This document shows, piece by piece, positions 15,978 to 16,949 of a stretch of DNA of 64,000 nt. This DNA comes from Nocardiopsis sp. CC223A. Lineage in GTDB: Bacteria > Actinomycetota > Actinomycetes > Streptosporangiales > Streptosporangiaceae. Position 1 is the first letter of the stretch; each line of letters starts with the position of its first letter. The stretch lies in the NCBI RefSeq assembly GCF_030766825.1, contig NZ_JASFDV010000025.1:1-64000 (forward strand), read 5' to 3'. The notes under the pieces are model-generated. The model was not told the DNA's origin. It was given only the letters and a program-made list of their open reading frames with translations, and made no database searches. A program made the position numbers and the translations under genes.

Positions 15978-16196
15978 TCAGTCCCTCATTTCGTCGAGGG
16001 GGAGGGTCTCGCGCAGGAAGCCGCGCAACCGGAGGAAGTTCTCCAGGTAGGCGCGGTGCTCGTCGCAGGCGGTCCACACCTTGCGCCGGTCCGGGGTGTG
16101 GACCTTGGGGTTGTTCCACACCAGGGCCCACACCGCCGCGTCGCGGCAGTCGCGCCGCGAGCAGATCACGGTCTCGGCCCGTTCGGAATCACCCAT
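15978..16196 (-). CDS. Conserved small Cys-containing actinobacterial protein
   Basis: A 72-residue protein with CSRRDC near the N-terminus and C..H in TACDEHRAYL, a possible zinc site of CxxxxC...CxxH type. The string WALVWNNPKVHTPDRRK is typical of a widespread actinobacterial family that is sometimes mislabelled as acetone-related; the true function is unknown. The ATG at 16196 matches the family start. The longer frame to 16421 would cover an RNA-like hairpin array and is rejected. It lies just downstream of that small-RNA candidate on the same strand. Confidence 0.8.
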   Translation of the reverse strand: MGDSERAETVICSRRDCRDAAVWALVWNNPKVHTPDRRKVWTACDEHRAYLENFLRLRGFLRETLPLDEMRD

Positions 16197-16264
16197 GCTG
16201 CCCCCGATGAAGAAAAGCGGATCGCCCGATGGACGGGCGGCAACGGCAGGGTAGGGGAACCGGG

Positions 16265-16384
16265 CCGGAGAAGACAAAGGCGACGCCGGGTGGCTACGGG
16301 GGCAAACCACCCGGCGTCGCATGCGATGTTCCGACGGGGGCTCGAAACATCGTCCCGCGCTCCGACGGGGGACCGGAGCGCCAA
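16265..16384 (-). ncRNA. Three-hairpin small RNA with CCCCCG loops (6C-like)
   Basis: On the minus strand three successive hairpins each expose a loop with CCCCCG. Hairpin 1: 8-bp stem (16381-16374 with 16364-16357), loop GTCCCCCGT. Hairpin 2: 7-bp stem (16352-16346 with 16330-16324) plus an inner 3-bp stem, loop GCCCCCG. Hairpin 3: perfect 14-bp stem (16320-16307 with 16293-16280), loop TTTGCCCCCGTAG, followed by CTTTGTCTTC as an intrinsic terminator. TTGACG (16421-16416) and TGTACATT about 18-20 bases on form a plausible promoter. Actinobacterial 6C RNA has C-rich hairpin loops, usually with six or more C; here there are five. Confidence 0.65.
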
Positions 16385-16730
16385 GACCCAATGTACACCG
16401 CCACCCCCGGGGGTACGTCAAGAGTCAGTTACGACGTTGTCTCGGGAGAGTCCCGGCGAGTGAAGGTCTTAAATACCAGGTCAGGGCTTATATGCCTATT
16501 TTGTGAGGGATGCGGGAGCGTGACGGAGGAGACGTCCGTGCCTTCCTGGTCACGGAAATCCCAACAGGGCCCAAAGTCCTTATCCGTACCCGGTCAAGCG
16601 TCGCTTCCGTTCCCTTCTCCGGTGCGGCGGGCGAGAACGGGGCCGGTGTGGCGGGCGGTGAATGTGGGGAGGCAGGTGAGCGGGGGCGGGCCCGCGGGGC
16701 CGCGCGCAACCGATCAGTCAGGGGGTCCAC
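16385..16730. other. Intergenic region between small RNA and dodecin genes
   Basis: No coding frame is credible. The left end carries the putative minus-strand small-RNA promoter. The middle (about 16465-16505) is AT-rich for this genome and could hold the dodecin promoter. Nothing else was recognised. Confidence 0.45.
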
Positions 16731-16949
16731 ATGTCCGGCCACACCTACCGGGTCACCGAGATCGTCGGCACGTCGCCCGACGGGGTCACCGAGGCGATCA
16801 ACAACGGGATCGAACGGGCGTCGAGCACGCTGCGCGGGCTCGACTGGTTCGAGGTCACCGAGATCCGCGGCCACATCGAGGACGGTGGCGTCGCGCACTT
16901 CCAGGTGGGCCTCAAGGTCGGTTTCCGCTTGGAGGAACCGCAGGGCTAG
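16731..16949 (+). CDS. Dodecin (flavin-binding protein)
   Basis: A 72-residue protein matching dodecin along its full length: HTYRVTEIVGTSPDGVTEAI, then GLDWFEVTEIRGHI with the tryptophan that stacks on flavin, and a closing FQVGLKVGFRLE. Dodecins form 12-subunit shells that store or buffer FMN/riboflavin in the cytoplasm. The TAG stop is supplied by the edge of a short inverted-repeat element inserted at its 3' end, so the final residues after EE may differ from relatives. Confidence 0.93.
   Translation: MSGHTYRVTEIVGTSPDGVTEAINNGIERASSTLRGLDWFEVTEIRGHIEDGGVAHFQVGLKVGFRLEEPQG

Follow-up and report, generated by a model that had tools for sequence, protein, structure and literature searches.

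RNA-based regulation in actinomycetes has been little mapped. Their known C-loop RNA is 6C, which reportedly binds its mRNAs through C-rich loops and does so without chaperones. As defined in the available portion of PMC8388888, 6C consists of two stem-loops, each holding six or more C, and regulates several genes in M. tuberculosis. Sequence searches have identified no Hfq homologue in actinomycetes, according to the part of PMC6789036 at hand, and in Streptomyces coelicolor two expressed small RNAs, scr5583 and scr1434, carry a C-rich loop (PMC3765725, available portion). A comparable logic is described for LhrC in the accessible sections of PMC4132741: three redundant CU-rich sites, the terminator loop included, bind one Shine-Dalgarno (SD) region, and loop A and the terminator loop can each bind the same start region, as can a single-stranded stretch, though more weakly. 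The same sections present the UCCC motif as a hallmark of SD-blocking small RNAs in low-GC bacteria.

In this study, we explored a locus with C-rich hairpin loops on the minus strand of the window, that is, the whole 64,000-nucleotide stretch of Nocardiopsis sp. CC223A DNA that was analysed. Our comparisons support a real, broadly conserved structured RNA which, by the searches made, is a new family of the C-loop kind that includes 6C. It is probably a small RNA regulator, with a predicted transcript, recurring across many actinomycetes including Streptomyces. Its structure, loop, promoter-like element and locus are conserved; its function we infer. The locus comprises the following features.

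15978 to 16196, minus strand: p72, the gene of a 72-residue protein, with GGGGG in its ribosome-binding region
16267 to 16279, minus strand: tail 3' of the terminator hairpin, CTTTGTCTTCTCC, found by sequence inspection
16273 to 16384, minus strand: predicted CCCCCGU small RNA of about 110 nt, with three CCCCCGU-loop hairpins
16280 to 16320, minus strand: hairpin 3 of the predicted fold, terminator-like, loop CCCCCGT at 16302-16296
16324 to 16352, minus strand: hairpin 2 of the predicted fold, loop CCCCCGT at 16340-16334
16357 to 16381, minus strand: hairpin 1 of the predicted fold, loop CCCCCGT at 16371-16365
16390 to 16395, minus strand: -10 TACATT with TG in front (extended -10), from alignment A2; comparable elements recur at regular distances among relatives
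16416 to 16421, minus strand: -35-like TTGACG, 20 nt from the -10, invariant in 24/24 sequences of A2
16422 to 16447, minus strand: conserved block TCCCGAGACAACGTCGTAACTGACTC upstream of the -35, from A2
16731 to 16949, plus strand: dodecin gene, divergent neighbour (Pfam PF07311, E 1.3e-28), with GGGGG in its ribosome-binding region

The first-pass annotation had described three tandem minus-strand hairpins presenting one loop motif, CCCCCG. This arrangement is confirmed, with the motif one base longer, CCCCCGT. The loops are indeed identical as it claimed; yet its statement that the stems differ completely goes too far, since 11 bases, CCCCCGTCGGA, are common to hairpins 1 and 2. The predicted fold of 16260-16386 reaches -69.6 kcal/mol (z = -5.04), a value equalled by 0 of 200 shuffles. 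Three of the 22 copies of CCCCCGT in the window lie within hairpins of at least 8 Watson-Crick pairs, all of them in this RNA, against 9 of 1461 copies of words with the same letters rearranged. Since two 400-kb samples from other genomes gave 1/87 and 0/110 for CCCCCGT in hairpins, with no excess over rearranged words, the excess in the window is confined to this gene.

The limits of the predicted RNA were placed from the -10 at the start and from the terminator hairpin at the end. The promoter-like TTGACG-20-TACATT stops 8 bases ahead of hairpin 1, and therefore the start is predicted near 16384 and the end after 16280. A conserved -10-like element and a terminator-like hairpin, which may represent an own promoter and an intrinsic terminator, are present, each with a reservation toward what had been proposed: the TTGACG element exists upstream but stands 20 nt from the sole good -10, TACATT, and hairpin 3 is terminator-like but its U-tail is weak in this genome. 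Several relatives have a terminator tail of CTTTTT or longer. A TG-extended -10 occurs in 43/47 relatives, 48-65 nt from the terminal loop or, in three-hairpin members, 88-92 nt from it, a count that is descriptive because the pattern was drawn up from those same sequences. The conserved block upstream of the -35 is a possible activator site. By eye, the -35/-10 spacer with its edges (window 16393-16416, minus strand) forms in several relatives an imperfect inverted repeat GTAC...GTAC, for example GTACACCG-N8-CGGTGTAC in locus L007, and this long-spacer repeat recalls promoters whose activator binds within an extended spacer.

How widely does the RNA occur? The neighbouring p72 gene retrieved 75 loci from named genomes, 23 of which show the triple CCCCCGT pattern; these belong to Nocardiopsis, Marinitenerispora, Allosalinactinospora, Streptomonospora and Murinocardiopsis, and to records titled Nocardiopsaceae bacterium and Glycomyces. 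One such locus (L017), titled Glycomyces fuscus, has a Nocardiopsis-type RNA with p72 and dodecin, and is possibly mislabelled. In a close-relative alignment of 24 sequences, window included, the three loops are invariant and the -35, the -10 and the upstream block are conserved. The covariance model built from it, R1, scores 126.1 bits at the window RNA, itself one of the 24 source sequences. At E 0.1 or better, R1 finds a match in 293 of the 298 genomes sampled from the window's family (65 of 68 genera); over 345 class genomes it matched 91, comprising 34 in the own family and 57 weaker ones outside. Reading 13 of the weak outside matches revealed C-loop hairpins in 12 and a terminator without them in one. 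For lack of a C-loop, one weak match (L145, genome G391, 34.2 bits) was left out of alignments A3 and A4.

A two-hairpin model, R2, matched 148 of 394 class genomes and 56 of 137 genera; 41 of the matched genomes belong to the window's own family, and under stricter filters the other 246 class genomes had no match at E 0.01. Among named records, R2 placed the RNA directly upstream of p72 in 9 of the 52 loci searched, with two C-loops in six Streptomyces, one Kitasatospora and a record titled Actinobacteria bacterium OK074, and one C-loop in Nocardioides islandensis. The remaining 43 p72 loci (e.g. Kocuria, Modestobacter, Microbacterium) gave no convincing R2 match, and the RNA is present at all 6 named Streptomyces loci retrieved via p72. 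The presence of CCCCCGT in R1 and R2 matches is partly built in, because both models contain the loop; shared neighbours are independent of it. Orthologous regions, once aligned, keep the hairpins and the loop motif, and the refutation that the first-pass annotation had envisaged, their absence at such loci, fails.

The pairing is recorded in substitutions on both sides of the stems. In alignment A4, which takes one match from each of 47 sources that we chose out of the wider set of 148 R2-matched genomes and which, being fitted to R2, leans towards structure and loop, changes fall on both sides of 19/22 pairs. Its both-side-change cells number 142 versus 30.2 in shuffles (0/500 as high), and the signal is gone when partners are slid by 1-3 columns. 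The free MAFFT alignment A3, of 21 sequences, agrees (15/22 pairs; 48 cells versus 13.6 in shuffles); two near-duplicates left out of it, L148 and L153, are both in A4. A family alignment, A5, of 36 chosen members (32 distinct) has 14 of 39 pairs changing on both sides, with 62 cells versus 13.4 in shuffles (0/500), and on a weaker one of its five measures, further pair types, 30 versus 27.0, a figure reached by 16/500 shuffles. By hairpin, both-side change affects 5/10 pairs in hairpin 1 and 5/11 in hairpin 2 (32 distinct family sequences), and in hairpin 3, the best-conserved portion of the RNA family, 4/18 within the family and 12/15 class-wide.

The loop, in turn, is fixed. Each aligned letter of the terminal CCCCCGT is invariant and the full word stands in 46 of the 47 sequences, the exception (L146) having four C, while stem columns fall to 49% identity in the same set. 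Within the modelled stretch the exact word occurs twice in 33/47 and once in 14/47, and it occurs three times in 33 of the 36 family members. Some of the 14 one-word members (L165, L169) keep a C-run in hairpin 1 without the exact word; L172, L166 and L170 keep the first hairpin with a loop that has no C-run. Streptomyces displays two loops, some lineages one and the window three. A conserved C-rich sequence exposed in hairpin loops, as in the class of C-rich-loop antisense small RNAs, is present throughout this series.

The gene neighbourhood is likewise shared. Outside the family, 50 of the 51 loci read adjoin dodecin, DUF3099, p72 or moaA. The first 32 of them all have at least one of these neighbours, with DUF3099 upstream on the same strand in 29, MoaA downstream on the other strand in 28, dodecin upstream and diverging in 24, and p72 downstream in 18. 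The 19 weakest R2-matched genomes have CCCCCGT within the sequence read in 19/19 and at least one of the four neighbours in 18/19 (dodecin 16, MoaA 13, DUF3099 6, p72 5), L262 being the sole exception; the R2-matched genomes G389 and G409 and the stronger remainder lie outside the set of loci read. Six of the seven fetched family loci have both dodecin and DUF3099, and the seventh, L152, has none of the four: in this family genome of 3.6 Mb (G040), the RNA lies away from dodecin, DUF3099, p72 and moaA. The window region has dodecin and p72, with no DUF3099 match. Pfam confirms the DUF3099 and MoaA domains and dodecin; for p72 it returned no family, nor did NCBIfam. The small Cys protein gene noted earlier beside the RNA is there in the window but is not a fixed part of the locus, p72 being found at 23/51 outside-family loci. 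Given the 28/51 without it, and L152, the CCCCCGU RNA is not merely the leader of the next gene.

Several other explanations may be weighed against these data. Chance, or an ordinary series of GC-rich hairpins, we regard as practically negligible: the genome is of high G+C and CCCCCGT is common in it, with 22 copies in the window, but the fold score, the loop-in-hairpin excess and the conserved locus all speak against this, and the covariation refutes it. That the RNA is 6C (RF01066) or a three-loop variant of it, as the first-pass annotation had considered next to a separate C-loop family, is highly improbable. The plan is the same, with C-rich loops and a terminator as last hairpin, and L136, a Streptomyces-like member, reaches 26.1 bits with the 6C model. 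Yet the covariance search with the Rfam 6C model that had been called for gave no 6C match in the window or in its own genome: RF01066 (gathering score 47 bits) was not among the matches at E up to 10 in a search of 701 bases, and had no match in the own genome at E 0.001 or 0.1. Across 120 family genomes, RF01066 was found in 111 at E 0.1 (101 above its cut-off); 9 are without 6C and 4 others without R1, and 107 have both RNAs. Where the positions were compared (G003, G005, G012, G015, G033, G034, G040, G057, G065, G086 and G119), the two RNAs are separated by more than 2 Mb in contig coordinates or sit on separate contigs in 11/11. At both of the called 6C loci with ORFs examined, 6C lies upstream of an ssd-like gene. 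The ssd-like gene of the own genome is on contig C53, and the window RNA lies between dodecin and p72. Thus, 6C orthology is rejected by score, locus and coexistence, the invariant GU also counts against the 6C reading, and it is the separate C-loop family that finds support; ancient paralogy with 6C, as distinct from orthology, may still hold. A cis element, either a DUF3099 terminator or a p72 attenuator or leader, seems quite unlikely. In many genomes the RNA does lie between DUF3099 and p72, sometimes a few tens of bases from p72; against this stand the extended -10 upstream of hairpin 1 in most relatives, the outside-family loci where p72 (28/51) or DUF3099 (16/51) was not found, and the window region itself as regards DUF3099, and we know of no ordinary terminators that keep a seven-base loop across a class. 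A p72 leader or attenuator in particular is unlikely, as the RNA occurs where p72 was not found.

The main rival is a protein decoy, because it too would explain the GU: the CCCCCGU loops would bind an RNA-binding protein, which the RNA would titrate, much as CsrB titrates its protein with GGA loops. We consider it unlikely, if a serious contender. A seven-base loop including GU in 46/47 terminal loops, a copy number of one to three, rigid stems and the lack of a clear ACGGGGG enrichment at start sites (see below) are all in keeping with it; conversely, one-loop lineages would be poor titrators, a loop complement in or beside the RNA in one family, f14, fits base pairing better, and to our knowledge no actinomycete protein has CCCCCGU specificity. 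To an antisense RNA, independently transcribed and acting in trans, whose C-loops pair with G-rich ribosome-binding sites and block translation, we give about an even chance. It is the likeliest mechanism, drawn by analogy with 6C and LhrC, with transcription, mRNA binding by the loops and the repressive effect all inferred. An RNA of about 75-115 nt would start just before the first hairpin and stop at the terminator hairpin. Its functional unit would be a CCCCCGU loop on a rigid stem, present in one, two or three copies by lineage, and the identical loops would offer interchangeable landing pads for the G-rich ribosome-binding sites of several mRNAs. Loop pairing would block translation without Hfq, as for 6C, and at multiple sites, as for LhrC.

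Start sites were examined for possible targets in two genomes, one a Nocardiopsis (275 genes; 253 in the other), each sampled as 20 stretches of 20 kb, with gene starts predicted from base composition by codon position and checked only by a GGAGG peak at the SD position. GGGGG in the SD zone is modestly raised, in 15/275 genes (controls 9 and 4) and 18/253 (controls 7 and 10), a weak rise that could be ordinary SD variation. The full loop complement, ACGGGGG, shows no clear enrichment there (0/275 and 3/253 genes versus 0-2 in neighbouring windows), and general SD pairing thus does not explain the invariant GU. We found no target with class-wide conservation. Nearer the locus, GGGGG at window 16197-16210 (minus strand) and 16715-16730 (plus strand) could pair with the C-loops. 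In Nocardiopsis, GGGGG stands at the ribosome-binding position of p72 in 11/18 and of dodecin in 11/18 loci, versus 15/275 genes in the Nocardiopsis sample; outside Nocardiopsis the start sites with it number 8/76 for p72 and 0/37 for dodecin. These neighbour sites are a lead, not a test, because the 18 loci are related to one another: 16 come from records titled Nocardiopsis, and the other two are the window and the Glycomyces-titled record. Within family f14, the sequence [A/G]CGGGGG is found in 9/11 one-loop members, inside the 88-base region on the 5' side of the terminal hairpin, as against 0/24 two-loop and 0/11 three-hairpin members; the carriers (L174, L245, L247, L251, L253, L255, L257, L258 and L261) are related genomes, and the pattern was noticed by eye. 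The G-run lies mostly 49-50 nt from the loop, with the first C-loop hairpin missing. It would pair with the loop, GU included, possibly as a pseudoknot or built-in competitor; it may also lie outside the transcript, because no -10 was matched in L174, the sole f14 member examined for one.

The 6C place of Nocardiopsis, upstream of the ssd-like gene, holds a C-rich RNA candidate of its own (L226, at G000:C53:38854-38998, minus strand), where the Rfam 6C model reports nothing. DNA matches to it occur in 16 of 40 genus genomes (L226 itself and relatives L227-L241), with the other 24 showing none. All 16 adjoin an ssd match and contain three C-runs at least five bases long, of which the third is CCCCCGT in every case; the fold was computed for the own copy alone. 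It is conceivable, if doubtful, that our RNA is a second C-loop regulator beside 6C, with CCCCCGU as a recognition module present in one to three copies per RNA and both RNAs sharing one reader in a dosage-tuned network. Such sharing is suggested because CCCCCGT is the third C-run at the Nocardiopsis 6C locus, and because of the loop complement in f14. The reader would be a common mRNA set or one RNA-binding protein, in bacteria without a known Hfq.

A second C-loop RNA, which our searches did not find in Rfam 15, is a ready subject for regulation studies. Lineages with one, two and three loops provide a natural dosage series, and the invariant GU after the C-run, for which plain SD pairing does not account, is a concrete clue. 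At Rfam cut-offs nothing was reported in the window or at the loci of 20 relatives. We found no description of the CCCCCGU RNA in the open-licence PMC literature; supplementary tables of Streptomyces small RNAs, outside that scope, may list it as an unnamed transcript.

Among described RNAs, Scr3202 (RF02833), with two C-rich-loop hairpins, is alike in plan and scores highest of the Rfam models on the window RNA (34.1 bits, E 0.0051, 701-base search). Membership is rejected, as its gathering score is 52 bits and the Streptomyces-like L136 was not listed for Scr3202 at E up to 10; nor did the window site appear in the genome search, in which 150 of 13757 candidates were scored. The scr5583 and scr1434 RNAs belong to other loci judging by their names, by which alone they are set apart here. 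LhrC of Listeria offers a model of how such an RNA might work, with near-identical C-rich sites repeated and the terminator loop among them; LhrC and the UCCC-motif RNAs that PMC4132741 names with it, RNAIII, RsaE, SprD and FsrA, are from Firmicutes, carry UCCC rather than CCCCCGU and are unrelated in sequence, and we claim no homology. Closest in kind is 6C (RF01066; B11/ncRv13660c in mycobacteria), likewise a short actinobacterial RNA with C-rich hairpin loops. Yet 6C has two loops of six or more C, whereas the window RNA has three hairpins, each with GT after a run of five C; the sequences of 6C compared have no GU after the C-run, whereas GU is invariant in the CCCCCGU RNA; and 6C lies beside an ssd-like gene, the CCCCCGU RNA beside dodecin, DUF3099, p72 or moaA.
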